A stretch of DNA of 64,000 nt, taken from contig DUPK01000021.1 in the NCBI GenBank assembly GCA_012838345.1, positions 1 to 64,000 of the forward strand, in the 5' to 3' direction. This document shows positions 1,416 through 54,326 of this stretch, one piece after another (positions within the stretch are counted from its first letter, which is position 1; every line of letters starts with the position of its first letter). Under the pieces are notes generated by a model. That model worked only from the letters and a program-made list of their open reading frames with translations, was not told the origin of the DNA and made no database searches. This stretch comes from Clostridiales bacterium (GTDB taxonomy: Bacteria; Bacillota; Clostridia; Oscillospirales; Oscillospiraceae). Made by a program: the position numbers and the translations under genes.

Positions 1416-3779
1416 TCAGCGTTTCAGATTGATAAGCTCCTCGAGCATCGTGTCTGAAACCGTAATAATTCGGGTGTTGGCCTGGAAGCCGCGCTGAGTG
1501 GTTATCATATCGGCAAATTCCGAGGAAAGGTCAACGTTCGACATCTCAAGCGCGCTTGTTTTAAGTGCGCCGGTGCCGTCACTGCCGGGGTCGCAGAGCT
1601 TGGGATCGCCGGAGTTTGCCGTCGCTCTGAAGTAATTCGAGCCGTGGGGCGCAAGTCCCGCGGGGTTTGCAAAGCTTGCCAGCGAGATTTTGCCCACCAC
1701 TACGGTTCCCTTCTCGGCATGGTTGACCGAAATCGTACCGTCGGCGCCGATGGCTATGTTCGTAAGCTGGTCAAGAGTTACGACGCCGCCTTCCGTTCCT
1801 CCCTCCAGCACAAAGGCCTTGGTCGAGAAGCCGAGATCCTTCGAGGCCGTTGCGGGTGTGACTGTCAGAATGGTTCCGTCGATATAGGCAACCATTTTGT
1901 CGCCGTCGGCGGGAATACTGCCGAAATTGTCACTCATGGCCTCAAAGCCGGGGTTGGAAACCTTTATGTAGTCGCCCTGGGCGCTCTTGAGAAGTAACGA
2001 GGTCGCAAGAGTATCCTCCCTTATCTGCGCGCTGTAGGTTTTTTCTCCGATTTCCATCGTAACTTCCCAGTAGTCTCCGTCCGGATCGCTGTGGTATATG
2101 GCGTAGAAGCCGTCTCCTCCCAATACGAAGCCCGAACCTGTAAAGTCGGAGCTCGTCCCGAGGAAGGTCATGCCGCCGAAGGCGGGATTGGTCATGCCCT
2201 CAATGCTGCCGGGGATAATACCGAAGTTGCTGCCGGCTATCTGCGCTCCGGTAAGCGGCTCCGTGTACGCAGGCTTGTAATCCACTGTTTTGTAATTGTG
2301 ATTGCCGAGTGTCGCCGCAAGGCCGAAAGGCTCGTCGAGGTCAGCAATATCAATGCCGAGCGCCGCCGCGGCGTTCGCCGCCGAGGGTATATTCATCGTA
2401 ATAGTCCCGTCGGCATCGTTGCTTGTCTTAAGGGTGACTGTGCCTCCTCCTACCGGCACGTCGGCGGAATAGGTAACTCCTCCTATAGTTGCGTTGAGCG
2501 TATAGCTGCCGTCGGCATTTATAGTACCGAGACTGAACGAAACGTCTCCCGCGTACGGGAATGTCGTGCTCACGCCCGTAATTGTCGCGCCGCCGAGCAG
2601 AGGAATATTAAGCGACAGATTCGATATGCTCGCGCCCGAAGCCAGACCGCTGGTAAGCAAGGAGCCGGTTTTTTCAACGCTCAGCGTTATTTCGCCTTCG
2701 GTTCCCGCTCCATCTCCCGTAAGCTTGACGACGGTTCCGGCAACTGCGGCGGGCGAAACCTCGCCCTCGTAGGTAACCGAGCCTATCGTTATGGATATAA
2801 GATAGTTCTGGTTGTCCGGGAGCCCGGGCTGGGTGGCCGAAATGCTTGTTATCGCGCCGAGACCCGTACCGCCTATCCCCGGCTTAAAGCCCTTTATTGA
2901 CAGGGCGCCGCCGAAGAACTGGTCCGGATCAGCCGCCGACAGGGTAGTCTGCAGCGCGTTCGGCGCGCCCGTGAACCCGCCGTTTACCGCGTCCCGCCCG
3001 AAGACGTTCTTGCTGGACGTGATTGTGAATGTGCCCGCAGTATGCTGCTTACCGCCGTTTGCCTCGGTTATCGCCGCGTTTATCGCGTTGTTAAGCTCTG
3101 TTAGAGAGGAGAACTTCTCATAGGCGTTGAGCGAAACCGCTATGGCGCCGGTTGCGGTTATGGTCGCAGCGGCTTTGAGGCCAGCGGGCAGGTCCTCGCT
3201 CGAACTTATCGAAATGGACACGTTTCCGTACTTTGTCGCATTCGAGGCGGTGATGGTATAGGTGATTCCGTTGATGGTTTCAATCGTCGTCGGCTTTCTT
3301 GCCTCAACCGCGCCGACGTTGTCTAGACTTATCTTCTGCGTACCGGGCGTCCCGTCCGCGCTGGTCGCTCCCAGGACAAAATTGCCGTTTATGTCAGTCA
3401 GGTATCCGTTGGAGTCGTAATCGAACAGGCCCGCCTTGGTGTAGAAAATGTTGCCTTCTGCGTCCATGACCTGGAAAAACCCCTCGCCGGTAATCGCGAC
3501 GTCAAGTCCGAATCCCGTGCTCTGAAGGCTGGACTGGGTCATTTGGGTCTGTATCCCCGCGAGCATCGAGCCGTAGCCGACGGTTGAGGGGTTGGTGCCG
3601 CCGCGGTTGGCCGTTCCGGCCGAGGCATCCCTGATTGTCTGGTAGAAAATATCGCTGAAGACGGCGCGCTGTGCTTTGTATCCGTAGGTGTTGACGTTTG
3701 CGATGTTGTTGCCTATGACGTCCATCTTGGTCTGATGTGTCTTAAGTCCGGCCACGCCGGAGAACATAGCTCTGTTCAC
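1416..3779 (-). CDS. flgE: Flagellar hook protein FlgE, enlarged
   Basis: FlgE polymerises into the hook, the universal joint outside the cell. The N-terminal rod/hook domain (1-150: G-N-N-I-A-N-V-N-T-Y-G-Y-K, then G-E-G-F-F-Q-V) and the C-terminal domain (750-787, with T-T-Q-R-G-F-Q-A-N-T-R-I-I) are clear. At 787 residues it is far longer than the common 400-500. The extra length is a threonine/glycine-rich outer region with three related beta units near 325-369, 425-466 and 570-612, each holding an I-G-x-x-T-Y core. A ribosome site (AAAGGAG) precedes the ATG. Confidence 0.95.
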   Translation of the reverse strand: MNRAMFSGVAGLKTHQTKMDVIGNNIANVNTYGYKAQRAVFSDIFYQTIRDASAGTANRGGTNPSTVGYGSMLAGIQTQMTQSSLQSTGFGLDVAITGEGFFQVMDAEGNIFYTKAGLFDYDSNGYLTDINGNFVLGATSADGTPGTQKISLDNVGAVEARKPTTIETINGITYTITASNATKYGNVSISISSSEDLPAGLKAAATITATGAIAVSLNAYEKFSSLTELNNAINAAITEANGGKQHTAGTFTITSSKNVFGRDAVNGGFTGAPNALQTTLSAADPDQFFGGALSIKGFKPGIGGTGLGAITSISATQPGLPDNQNYLISITIGSVTYEGEVSPAAVAGTVVKLTGDGAGTEGEITLSVEKTGSLLTSGLASGASISNLSLNIPLLGGATITGVSTTFPYAGDVSFSLGTINADGSYTLNATIGGVTYSADVPVGGGTVTLKTSNDADGTITMNIPSAANAAAALGIDIADLDEPFGLAATLGNHNYKTVDYKPAYTEPLTGAQIAGSNFGIIPGSIEGMTNPAFGGMTFLGTSSDFTGSGFVLGGDGFYAIYHSDPDGDYWEVTMEIGEKTYSAQIREDTLATSLLLKSAQGDYIKVSNPGFEAMSDNFGSIPADGDKMVAYIDGTILTVTPATASKDLGFSTKAFVLEGGTEGGVVTLDQLTNIAIGADGTISVNHAEKGTVVVGKISLASFANPAGLAPHGSNYFRATANSGDPKLCDPGSDGTGALKTSALEMSNVDLSSEFADMITTQRGFQANTRIITVSDTMLEELINLKR

Positions 3780-11330: not shown

Positions 11331-11675
11331 TCAAATCTGCATCTGCATTATCTCTTTGTACGCATTAATAACCCTTGATGTAAGCTGAACCGTCGTCTGC
11401 AGGGCGGCCTGAGCTTTGAGGCTGTTTATCTGTATCTGCGCCAAATCGTCCGCGTTTCCCAGAGCCAAATTGATGCTGTCCTCCGCGGCGGCTTTCTCGG
11501 CAGAGGCAAGCTCCTCAATTGTCTCGTTCAAAACGTTCTTAAACGACAAAGGTGCTTCGCCGCTTACCGGTTCCTTGGCTATATTATCCGATACCGAAAA
11601 CTCCATTTTTTTGATAGGTGTAATAGGTGTGAAACTAGAAAAAAGCTCTCCCATATCGGTTGCACTCCCATTCAT
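11331..11675 (-). CDS. fliE: Flagellar hook-basal body protein FliE
   Basis: FliE joins the MS ring to the rod and is among the first rod substrates exported. The 114-residue product has the conserved C-terminal half: an S-F-K-N-V-L-N-E-T-I motif, then Q-I-Q-I-N-S-L-K-A-Q-A-A-L-Q-T-T and V-I-N-A-Y-K-E-I-M-Q-M-Q-I at the very end. The ATG at 11675 has no ribosome site; the ATG at 11654 has GGGAG ten bases upstream and may be the true start. It is the first gene of the operon here, whereas many Firmicutes have flgB-flgC before it. Confidence 0.92.
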   Translation of the reverse strand: MNGSATDMGELFSSFTPITPIKKMEFSVSDNIAKEPVSGEAPLSFKNVLNETIEELASAEKAAAEDSINLALGNADDLAQIQINSLKAQAALQTTVQLTSRVINAYKEIMQMQI

Positions 11676-11696
11676 TTTTTGATATTCTATCGCTGA

Positions 11697-11747
11697 AAGA
11701 CAATTCTCCTGTGCCCGAAGCAGGCACCCGGCGGATTGCTTTGTCTT
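11697..11747 (-). promoter_or_regulatory. Structured leader element upstream of fliE
   Basis: A seven-base closing stem (AAGACAA with TTGTCTT at the two ends) encloses a strong inner hairpin at 11711-11727 (GTGCC/GGCAC arms extended by a G-U and a G-C pair). It lies 22-72 bases before the annotated fliE start and after the terminator of the upstream peptide gene. I compared it by eye with the cyclic-di-GMP-I riboswitch, which controls flagellar operons in some clostridia, and the conserved core is absent. Function unknown. Confidence 0.4.
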
Positions 11748-11810: not shown

Positions 11811-11845
11811 AAAAAGAGCAAATCCTATCAAATCTAGGACCGCTC
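11811..11845 (-). terminator. Intrinsic terminator after the cysteine-rich peptide gene
   Basis: On the minus strand GAGC-GG-TCCTA pairs with TAGGA-TTT-GCTC around a seven-base loop and is followed by TTTTTATT. It begins 11 bases after the stop of the 72-aa gene and separates it from fliE. Confidence 0.75.
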
Positions 11846-11855
11846 ATATACTTGC

Positions 11856-12074
11856 TCAGCCGCAGCCTTTCAAGCAGAGGGCGGCAGAGCCCTCACGGCA
11901 AAGCTGAGCTCCACCGTGTGCACAGTATTCTTTTGAGCTGACATGCGCGCAACTTGAAAAGGCAGTATCTCTACCGCACACAACAAGGCTTTCAGAATTG
12001 CCAATACGCCCGACGGACATGCGCTGGACCTGTGACCCGTAATCATATGTATAATAGTAGGTATGCTTCGCCAT
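11856..12074 (-). CDS. Small cysteine-rich peptide, unknown
   Basis: A 72-residue product I do not recognise. The first third is tyrosine-rich (H-T-Y-Y-Y-T-Y-D-Y). The rest carries six cysteines at 33, 42, 51, 59, 67 and 71, spaced 8, 8, 7, 7 and 3 residues apart, with many Gly, Ser and Ala. It has no signal peptide and ends C-G. The gene looks genuine: AAGGA lies nine bases before the ATG, a TTGAAT-17-TATAAT promoter lies upstream, and a terminator follows. The regular cysteine spacing suggests metal binding, disulfides or a modified peptide precursor. It does not match the SCIFF pattern, and no maturation enzyme is adjacent. Confidence 0.65.
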   Translation of the reverse strand: MAKHTYYYTYDYGSQVQRMSVGRIGNSESLVVCGRDTAFSSCAHVSSKEYCAHGGAQLCREGSAALCLKGCG

Positions 12075-12120
12075 TGAATCGCATCCTTGCTAAATTAATT
12101 ACTAAATCGAACGGCCTTGT

Positions 12121-12167
12121 CTTATGCAAAAATAATGTGCTTTTACTTCATATTATTTTTGCTTAAG
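12121..12167. repeat. 16-base inverted repeat in the 5' leader of the peptide gene
   Basis: Arms 12121-12136 and 12152-12167 match over 16 bases with one mismatch (core GCAAAAATAAT / ATTATTTTTGC) around a 15-base spacer. It lies between the promoter and the ATG of the cysteine-rich gene, so it would be transcribed as an AT-rich hairpin, or act as a protein-binding site. Confidence 0.65.
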
Positions 12168-12170
12168 AGT

Positions 12171-12209
12171 TTGTCACATAATGTGATATTTTGTCTAATT
12201 ATGTGACAA
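12171..12209. promoter_or_regulatory. Operator-like inverted repeat just downstream of the peptide promoter
   Basis: Perfect 12-base arms TTGTCACATAAT and ATTATGTGACAA flank a 15-base spacer. A third half-site in the same family (ATGTGAT, 12181-12187) makes TCACATAATGTGA itself palindromic. The repeat begins at the edge of the -10 element and covers the predicted transcription start, as a repressor operator would. Confidence 0.6.
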
Positions 12210-12237
12210 TTATAAAACATATTGGGAAGATATTCAA
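12209..12237 (-). promoter_or_regulatory. SigA-type promoter for the cysteine-rich peptide gene
   Basis: On the minus strand TTGAAT (12232-12237), a 17-base spacer and a consensus TATAAT (12209-12214). Transcription would start near 12202 and give a 5' leader of about 128 bases. It may also feed the flagellar operon by read-through of the terminator at 11811-11845, since no clear promoter was found directly before fliE. Confidence 0.7.
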
Positions 12238-12415: not shown

Positions 12416-12949
12416 ATGAACTTCTTAGAGCAAAGCGGTATATGGATATACCTGTTTATTTTTGTCGGAAAAATCTGCGAGGTGGCGGTTTCAACCATCA
12501 GAATAGTGCTTATAAACCGGGGCGAGCGGGTAAAGGGCTCGATAATCGCCGTTTTTGAGATGACTCTGTGGCTCTCTGTCACCGGTACCGTCCTGCAGGG
12601 CTTTCAGGACGACATTATCAGGGTGGTTATTTTCGCGCTCGCATTCGCCTTTGGGAACTTTGTCGGCTCATGGATGGAGGACAAGCTCGCCTTTGGGCTG
12701 TGCTCCCTGCAGGTTATTGTGCCCGACAACGAGAAGAGCAGTGAACTGGCGACGCATCTCAGGCAGAAAAACTTCGCCGTGACCGAGCTAAAGGGCAGAG
12801 GCAAGGACGGTGAACGCGAGCTTATGATACTCCACCTCAAACGGAGGCGGATTAAGGAGGCAACGGAAATCATCAAGTCCAACCTCAGTAACGCTGTAAT
12901 TGTCATAACCGATACCAAGGTAATCCAGGGGGGCTTTATAAAGAAATAA
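12416..12949 (+). CDS. UPF0316 / DUF2179 membrane protein
   Basis: A 177-residue protein with three N-terminal hydrophobic segments (about 5-25, 35-60, 67-85). A soluble C-terminal DUF2179-type domain follows, with the terminal V-I-V-I-T-D-T-K-V-I-Q-G-G-F. It resembles the UPF0316 family. DUF2179 domains occur at the ends of several membrane proteins and may bind small ligands; the function is not known. The start is the ATG at 12416 behind GGGGG; a TTG 12 bases earlier is in frame but lies within that ribosome site. It is monocistronic, facing the fla operon divergently. Confidence 0.82.
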   Translation: MNFLEQSGIWIYLFIFVGKICEVAVSTIRIVLINRGERVKGSIIAVFEMTLWLSVTGTVLQGFQDDIIRVVIFALAFAFGNFVGSWMEDKLAFGLCSLQVIVPDNEKSSELATHLRQKNFAVTELKGRGKDGERELMILHLKRRRIKEATEIIKSNLSNAVIVITDTKVIQGGFIKK

Positions 12950-12992: not shown

Positions 12993-13679
12993 TTATAATT
13001 TCACATTCGGTTGGTATTTCTTCACGGTCTCGGCTAAGGCTTCTATCTGCGCCTGAGTGTAGGGCGGCGCTTCCACCTTCAGCCTGTCCCGGCTTTTATA
13101 CTTCTCCGGTTTGCGGTAGTGGTTGAGAACATAGCGCGGAACGACCGGCAGCTCCCTTGCCATGGTAACAAGCTCCTCCTCGCGAAGCTGCGGGTAAACC
13201 GTCGTTCTCACCTCGAAGTCGGCGCCGCTGTCGAGAAGCAGCCGAACGGTCTCAAGAACCTTGTCCGCCCGCGCCCCGGCGCCGCAGATTCTCGGGTATT
13301 CGGCGCCCGGCGCTTTGTAGTCCACCGCGTAGTAGTCGAAAAGGCGCTCTTTAAGAAGCTCCTTTACGACTTCGGGACGGGAGCCGTTCGTGTCGAGCTT
13401 CAGCTTATAGCCGAGCCCTTTCACAGTCTGCGCGAACTGCTTTAGGTCCGGTTGCAGCGTCGGCTCGCCGCCGGATATTACCACCCCGTCGAGCAGCCCC
13501 GCCCTCTTTTCTAGGAACTCTCTTATATAGACGGGATTTAATACCTCGTAGGGGCCGTCAACGAGCGCCCTGTTATGGCAGTAAAAGCAGTCATAGTTGC
13601 ATCCGGGCACAAACAGCACACAGGATACAAGCCCCGGAAAATCTATGAGCGAGCTTTTTACTATGCCGGAAACTGTCAT
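12993..13679 (-). CDS. nrdG: Anaerobic ribonucleotide reductase activating protein NrdG
   Basis: A radical-SAM activase that uses S-adenosylmethionine and a [4Fe-4S] cluster to form the glycyl radical on NrdD. The cluster motif C-N-Y-D-C-F-Y-C is near residues 27-34, followed by the S-G-G-E-P-T SAM-binding motif near 70-75. At 228 residues, and with the I-V-K-S-S-L-I-D-F-P-G start, it is of the longer NrdG2 type. Its ATG overlaps the nrdD stop by four bases, so the pair is made together. Confidence 0.95.
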   Translation of the reverse strand: MTVSGIVKSSLIDFPGLVSCVLFVPGCNYDCFYCHNRALVDGPYEVLNPVYIREFLEKRAGLLDGVVISGGEPTLQPDLKQFAQTVKGLGYKLKLDTNGSRPEVVKELLKERLFDYYAVDYKAPGAEYPRICGAGARADKVLETVRLLLDSGADFEVRTTVYPQLREEELVTMARELPVVPRYVLNHYRKPEKYKSRDRLKVEAPPYTQAQIEALAETVKKYQPNVKL

Positions 13680-48354: not shown

Positions 48355-48633
48355 TAATAAACCGTTGAGTGGGAGTAGTAGCTGCAGGTAGAACGTCAAA
48401 GAGAGCCGCGGTCGGTGAAAAGCGGTACGGTATCCGGCAGTGAATGGGCCCACGAGGGCAAACCGAAAGATTTATCGAGTAGGGGCGACGGAGTGGCTCT
48501 TCGTTAAAAAAGCCGGCACATGTCAGTGTGCGCAGAGTGGGCGCAATAAATGCGTCAAGCCGGGTGGCACCGCAGGAGCTAAGGCTCTTGTCCCAGCAAC
48601 TATTACGTTGGGGACAAGAGCATTTTTGTTGCC
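48355..48633 (+). promoter_or_regulatory. Tryptophan T-box riboswitch
   Basis: A tRNA-sensing leader. The stem I base is formed by GTGGG (48369-48373) and CCCAC (48449-48453), with the specifier TGG (48445-48447) just before the 3' arm; an AGAGAG motif lies in stem I. The T-box sequence GGGTGGCACCGC (48562-48573) carries the TGGC that pairs with the uncharged tRNA 3' end; its C fits the G discriminator of tRNA-Trp. It controls the TrpB-like gene by antitermination when tRNA-Trp is uncharged. Confidence 0.93.
48584..48629 (+). terminator. T-box terminator
   Basis: GCTCTTGTCCC (48584-48594) pairs perfectly with GGGACAAGAGC (48611-48621), followed by ATTTTTGTT. Competing antiterminator pairing involves the T-box sequence just upstream. 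Confidence 0.92.
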
Positions 48634-53234: not shown

Positions 53235-54326
53235 TTATCTGTAGCTTATCTCTAGGCCCTTTGCAAGGCGGGGGTCCACGTCTATCCTCACCTTGTCGCC
53301 GTTTTGGCTGTCGGTGGACGTGACATTTATAACCATGAAGTTCATGCCGACTCCGCCCATAATCCTTGCCCTTTCCGGGCCAATCTTTACAACAGGCCTG
53401 TTTTGCTTAAGCCGCCTGCCTATGAGGGCGGCAAGGCGCGAGAACGGCCCCCTGAGGCTTACGTCGGAGCAGTCGGGACCAAGGCCGACACCGTTGTACC
53501 AGCCCACCGGCACCACGGCGGTTTTCAGGGGCTTTTTGATTTTCCGCCCGCCGCCCGCGCCTATTTTCCCGCCGGCCGGATGCCATTTTACCTCCTCGAG
53601 CCCTGCTTCGATATAACCGACCTTCCTGAGCCCGAAGTTCTCCTTGCCGGAAAGCCTCCCGATAAGGGCGCTGCCGGGGCAGACCGCGTCAAGGTTGCAA
53701 AAATCGTACCTGAATAGCGCGACGGAGTCGGCGGCGTGGGCAATGCCGGTTTCAAAGCCGGCCTCGTTGATTTTGGCTATGACCTCCCGAAAGCCTTCAA
53801 GCTCTTCCCGCGCCTGCTTCTCCTTTTTCAGGGCGTCCGAAAAGCGCATGTAAATGCCGGACACCGCGAGGTTTGACATATAGTTGTATATCGAAAGAAT
53901 CTTGTCAATCTCGTTCGGGCGGAAGCCGTAATGCCCGAGGCCCATATCAACTTTTACATGCACCTCCGCCACCATGCCCAGACTCTCGGCTATGCCGTTA
54001 ATGGCAGCCGCGGCCTCGTGGGAGCCGCAGGTCAAAATGGCCCTGTTTTCAATAAGCTTTTTAATCTCCGTTGGGTCGAGAGTGGAGCGCAGCATGAGAA
54101 TATTTTCCTCCTCAAAGCCCTCGTCACGCAAAGACACAACGTCCCCTGTCTCCGATACCGCGAAGGAGCCAATACCCTCCTCGCGCAAAAGCCTTGCCGC
54201 CTCCAAAAGGCCCATGCCCTGGGCGTTGGCGCTAAGATTTGCGATTATCTGGGCACCGTCCGCCCTCTGCTTAATAAGCTGCAAGTTGAATGTGACATCC
54301 TGCCTGTCAATGACCAGTGTCTTCAT
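53235..54326 (-). CDS. Alanine racemase-like protein lacking the PLP lysine
   Basis: A 363-residue protein with the alanine-racemase fold pattern: an N-terminal barrel (V-I-D-R-Q-D-V-T-F-N-L-Q-L-I; V-H-V-K-V-D-M-G-L-G-H-Y-G-F near 125-138; H-A-A-D-S-V-A near 196) and a C-terminal beta domain (V-V-P-V-G-W-Y-N-G-V near 270). Where Alr has V-K-A-N-A-Y-G-H-G, this reads L-S-A-N-A-Q-G-M-G near residue 37, so the PLP-binding lysine is Ser and the next tyrosine is Gln. It is unlikely to racemise alanine and may be a binding or regulatory paralogue. Start at 54326 behind GGGG. Confidence 0.78.
   Translation of the reverse strand: MKTLVIDRQDVTFNLQLIKQRADGAQIIANLSANAQGMGLLEAARLLREEGIGSFAVSETGDVVSLRDEGFEEENILMLRSTLDPTEIKKLIENRAILTCGSHEAAAAINGIAESLGMVAEVHVKVDMGLGHYGFRPNEIDKILSIYNYMSNLAVSGIYMRFSDALKKEKQAREELEGFREVIAKINEAGFETGIAHAADSVALFRYDFCNLDAVCPGSALIGRLSGKENFGLRKVGYIEAGLEEVKWHPAGGKIGAGGGRKIKKPLKTAVVPVGWYNGVGLGPDCSDVSLRGPFSRLAALIGRRLKQNRPVVKIGPERARIMGGVGMNFMVINVTSTDSQNGDKVRIDVDPRLAKGLEISYR

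Follow-up and report, generated by a model that had tools for sequence, protein, structure and literature searches.

Directly before the flagellar operon in a 64,000-nt stretch of Clostridiales DNA (the window), a short open reading frame would specify a 72-residue peptide with a conspicuous series of cysteines. Is this a gene, and if so, what kind of peptide does it encode? The frame lies on the minus strand between fliE and a divergent gene for a DUF5698/DUF2179 protein, and the promoter, ribosome-binding site (RBS) and terminator that an earlier note had described are all present around it (Table 1). The six cysteines (residues 33, 42, 51, 59, 67 and 71) are packed into 39 residues at near-even spacings of 8, 8, 7, 7 and 3, just as that note had counted them; it took the product to be a metal-binding or modified peptide, perhaps tied to motility or redox. 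By itself the frame is weak evidence for a gene, because 6.5% of sequences obtained by dinucleotide shuffling of the 400-nt transcript contain an ORF of 72 aa or longer on the same strand. On the evidence below we lean towards a fast-evolving, stand-alone candidate small-protein gene, derived from a zinc-ribbon family and expressed from its own promoter.

Table 1. Features at the 72-aa ORF locus and riboswitches of related genomes (positions refer to the window unless a genome is named).
Feature	Position	Strand	Remarks
Promoter TTGAAT-17-TATAAT	12209-12237	minus	10/12 consensus matches
Two direct 20-nt repeats, TCACATAATTAGACAAAATA and TCACATTATGTGACAAACTC	12167-12206	minus	just 3' of the -10 element
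5'-UTR hairpin	12121-12168	minus	z = -5.4 for 12115-12175; sequence not kept in G001
RBS AAGGA	12084-12088	minus	ends 9 nt 5' of the ATG; GAGGA in G001
72-aa ORF	11856-12074	minus	ATG 12074-12072, TGA 11858-11856; peptide MAKHTYYYTYDYGSQVQRMSVGRIGNSESLVVCGRDTAFSSCAHVSSKEYCAHGGAQLCREGSAALCLKGCG
39-aa core, residues 28-66	11877-11993	minus	ungapped alignment to the C-x2-C-x25-C-x2-C family
Intrinsic terminator	11811-11845	minus	stem-loop 11845-11816, U-run 11815-11811
fliE	11331-11654	minus	probable true start ATG 11654 (MGELFSS); first gene of the flagellar operon
DUF5698/DUF2179 protein gene	12419-12949	plus	divergent; same neighbour in G001
c-di-GMP-I riboswitch, G007	L043:1747-1831		before fliE
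c-di-GMP-I riboswitches, G003	G003:C11:52769-52853 and 53448-53532		before flgB

Stronger evidence than the frame alone comes from a sister species, in which an ORF of equal length and start recurs at the same place. When 60 related genomes were searched at the protein level, no convincing homologue emerged; the counterpart was reached by searching with DNA and through the genes on either side, in a Clostridiales MAG of the same genus (JAAYOL010000140.1, here G001) that is the sole syntenic relative found. Its ORF in the same gap is exactly 72 aa long, VKKQAYYIDNCIPAGNADVEYCALRRSRVTVPGGTRVGFGDYDVYGGGQLCRGRFAALYSLAAAGQNFYELF, with a GTG start (L028:1619-1837). The position before fliE is shared with G001 and not with G007 or G003, where none was seen upstream of fliE or flgB, and a profile run against 400 genomes of the same taxonomic family gave none either. 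As in G001 and G007, fliE itself probably begins at the ATG at 11654 rather than at the first ATG at 11675. Among the flagellar genes of the window, we also observed a FlgE-like hook protein (1416-3779) that at 787 aa is long for a hook protein.

The signals that flank the frame are conserved between the two species. A 36-nt promoter block, spacer included, is identical at 32 of 36 positions, as against about 47% in the adjacent non-coding blocks (Fisher p = 2e-6 for the excess). Both 20-nt repeats are retained in G001, directly after the -10 element, and have almost no further matches in either genome; the second contains the palindrome TCACATTATGTGA, and the pair looks operator-like. A regulon built on this repeat was rejected, since nearly all matches lie at the 72-aa ORF locus; those in G003 and G004 lie where a valS-like gene ends. 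The terminator folds at -12.9 kcal/mol (shuffle mean -6.1; 0 of 200 shuffles as low) and was missed by a consensus scan because its stem has a bulge. Pairing in its 11-bp stem has survived two double and two single changes between the species, and the stop codon, which in the window precedes the stem by 10 nt, lies inside the stem in G001. Because promoter, repeats, RBS, start and terminator stem are all conserved, we regard the transcription unit as real.

The amino-acid sequence has diverged in another manner. Over the 39-codon core, the window and G001 differ at 18, 13 and 16 first, second and third codon positions; 27 codons have changed non-synonymously and 3 synonymously. The corresponding counts are 77/53/233 for fliF, 16/4/34 for the C-terminus of fliE and 30/15/77 for the DUF2179 gene, so that the neighbours show the usual protein constraint whereas the ORF, with its flat distribution, shows none. 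Nor did the cysteine spacing survive the comparison: the G001 peptide has three cysteines (C11, C22 and C51), of which one, that of the QLC motif, is common to the window peptide. The six-cysteine pattern is therefore not one that the family shares.

The near-even spacing in the window species had pointed to a genuine peptide of six cysteines that binds metal or is modified in the manner of a RiPP; this orthologue largely refutes that reading, to which we give hardly any credence. The earlier note rightly saw no modification enzyme adjacent to the frame: the neighbours are the DUF2179 gene, NrdG-like and NrdD genes and the fliE operon. The nearby radical-SAM protein (12993-13679) is encoded immediately downstream of a class III ribonucleotide reductase, whose activase it most likely is, which leaves the supposed modified peptide without an adjacent maturase. 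With SCIFF and other clostridial cysteine-rich modified peptides the 72-aa peptide has its shortness and its many cysteines in common; unlike them, it has no conserved cysteine pattern and no maturase (the comparison drew on NCBIfam and Pfam scans and, for the remainder, on general knowledge). No Pfam, NCBIfam or PHROGs model matches it, and the note had recognised no family in it, but it does fit an uncatalogued one.

A profile of the window and G001 peptides matched a 94-aa protein of G140 (E = 1.7e-4 per genome over 400 genomes, with about 0.07 matches of this grade expected by chance); the other weak matches in the taxonomic family were at chance level. Because the G140 match could also have been chance, it was re-tested with G140 left out, and the window peptide then scored 18.0 bits against at most 11.1 for shuffles, the G001 peptide 11.5 against at most 9.5 (5000 shuffles each). 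A single 39-residue register aligns both peptides to the zinc-ribbon family with no gap, and it exceeds the next best by more than 55 points in each (45.0 versus -22.5 in the window, 34.4 versus -21.3 in G001). The discovery profile had placed the first part of the G001 peptide in a different alignment; at the fixed register the upstream half of that peptide gives p = 0.003. In six-frame searches with 10 intact family members, G140 and the window peptide not among them, the ORF came first in the 2-Mb genome that carries it (E = 0.0048; runner-up 0.19) and second in G001, although none of the family E-values is strong when taken singly, and the match statistics are partly circular, because the family was reached via the best match among 400 genomes. 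Taken together, these alignments make it very probable that the 72-aa peptide descends from this mini zinc-ribbon family.

Intact members are small free-standing proteins (for example G140:C18, G573:C6, G562:C86 and G723:C82) with the motif E-x-C-x2-C-G-x2-T ... Y-x-x-G-x-G-Q-L-C-x2-C, in which two CxxC knuckles stand 25 residues apart. No Pfam, NCBIfam or PHROG model covers the family, no solved structure matched it convincingly, nothing on it was found in the literature, and neither the window peptide nor an intact member had a plasmid or phage homologue. Its members are sparse across the taxonomic family, order and class, with a patchy, accessory-looking distribution; one other copy, in G062, has an internal stop, and G573 holds two copies 0.8 kb apart. 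Genes next to intact members include those for camelysin/SipW-type proteins, sortase, bacterial sugar transferases, polysaccharide synthesis, HA-domain helicases, DUF4379 and S-layer proteins. Surface, exopolysaccharide, HA-helicase and DUF4379 neighbours recur at G573:C6, G562:C86, G705:C5, G320:C4 and G676:C22. These neighbourhoods suggest a role of the intact family around cell-surface gene sets; the 72-aa ORF, in contrast, adjoins flagellar genes. The proposed tie to motility nonetheless finds no backing, as the ORF has its own promoter and terminator, neither G007 nor G003 showed a counterpart before fliE or flgB, and intact family members neighbour surface and exopolysaccharide genes.

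Within the shared register, E1, G27, Q30 and C32 of the family occur in both 72-aa peptides, while C6 and T10 are kept in the window peptide alone and C3 and G29 in that of G001 alone. The ligand positions read L30, C33, C59 and G62 in the window (L-x2-C ... C-x2-G) and C, R, C and R in G001 (C-x2-R ... C-x2-R). Neither peptide, then, has four cysteines in two CxxC knuckles, and because two of the four ligands are lost in each species there is no canonical four-cysteine zinc site; what both retain is similarity over the 39-residue core at the fixed register. P17 and R21, invariant in the 10 intact members, are replaced by H44 and K48 in the window and by R36 and G40 in G001, and each peptide keeps 4 of the 9 positions that are invariant in those members. 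An AlphaFold model, with the two-sequence alignment as input, has a mean pLDDT of 46.2, too low to inform on a zinc-ribbon fold. The idea of a metal-binding peptide is thus supported as regards ancestry, through the ungapped zinc-ribbon match; that the even spacing of the six cysteines is functional finds no support. Judged from the residues present, metal binding today is in doubt.

Zinc ligands lost from positions that coincide only in part between the window and G001 peptides, together with flat codon-position differences and many non-synonymous changes, would also fit a former zinc-ribbon gene that has become useless, its promoter and terminator still recognisable and its frame open by luck. 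The patchy, accessory-looking occurrence of intact members and the internal stop in G062 point the same way. We think such decay unlikely, though it deserves serious consideration: the promoter is far better conserved than its flanks, compensatory changes have kept the terminator stem, and both 72-codon frames are open despite in-frame length changes, where a 72-aa ORF appears in 6.5% and 9.5% of shuffles. A small regulatory RNA of about 400 nt with a chance open frame could explain why promoter and terminator are better conserved than the protein, and over 57 nt towards the 3' end the window and G001 are 74% identical, the changes being evenly distributed among codon positions. This is highly doubtful, however, given that RBS, start codon and frame are conserved, that both peptides fit one protein family in the same ungapped register, and that the whole transcripts fold no better than shuffles (z = -0.47 and -1.32).

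The unit might instead be a regulatory leader of the fliE operon, its promoter, about 555 nt upstream, also serving fliE and the leader deciding between termination and read-through; in one variant the ORF is possibly a leader peptide with its stop codon beside the terminator. A c-di-GMP-I riboswitch occupies the same place before fliE in G007 (89.5 bits), two precede flgB in G003, and a leader of this kind has been reported for flgB of C. difficile (PMC7446863). As in those systems, promoter, leader and terminator precede the first flagellar gene; unlike them, the 72-aa ORF locus has no c-di-GMP-I aptamer (RF01051) and has an ORF with its own RBS instead. No such riboswitch precedes fliE in the window species or G001, so the relatives differ in their flagellar-operon leader, and the four c-di-GMP-I elements of the window species lie elsewhere in its genome. 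One, L091 (G000:C28:31182), precedes a prepilin-peptidase/Flp-type pilin locus, and at L105 (G000:C9:45977-46192) two tandem aptamers precede a camelysin/SipW-like pair (genes named by eye in both cases). Consistent with a leader, the interval from terminator to fliE yielded no sigma-A-like promoter in a consensus scan of both species, and the stop codon lies close to the stem or within it. We nevertheless consider a leader improbable, for the transcripts show no structure beyond chance, no alternative antiterminator was seen, and an Rfam search found no riboswitch or other known RNA at the locus, only chance-level matches; the zinc-ribbon ancestry, moreover, implies a protein gene. The 60 nt just before fliE (window 11656-11715), identical to G001 at 49 of 60 positions, GGCACAGG-GAATTGTC...GATAGAATA, also speak against a leader, for they may themselves be a promoter outside the sigma-A class, one that by eye faintly resembles the sigma-H type. 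A combined scheme, in which a protein-coding leader replaced the c-di-GMP-I riboswitch and translation of the former zinc-ribbon peptide up to its terminator-side stop controls read-through into fliE, strikes us as quite improbable. Elsewhere in the window (48356-48598), a T-box leader scored just over its gathering threshold.

The candidate small-protein gene that we prefer would be transcribed from its own sigma-A-type promoter, carry the operator-like repeat pair where transcription starts and end at its own terminator, forming an independent and probably repressible unit. Its ORF would be translated into a peptide that has kept its frame, its length and a G-G-x-Q-L-C-R turn while losing half of the zinc ligands, and that may do without zinc or recruit other cysteines for it. 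The surface-gene neighbourhoods of the intact family hint at a small adaptor or regulator. Conservation of the promoter, the operator-like repeats, the RBS, the start, the frame and the terminator argues that the unit is being maintained; because the amino-acid sequence is so loose, either only a small part of the peptide, the GGxQLCR turn and its flanks, would matter, or the gene is on its way out. Against this explanation, there is one orthologue only, and the flat codon-position divergence equally fits decay or a non-coding role.

If the leader reading were true, related species would control the same flagellar operon through different leader elements. More generally, the divergence of a zinc ribbon can yield, as a side effect, a cysteine pattern that catches the eye, and the locus points to an uncatalogued family of small zinc-ribbon proteins whose genes, in Clostridia, lie next to those for SipW/camelysin, sortase, exopolysaccharide and S-layer functions.
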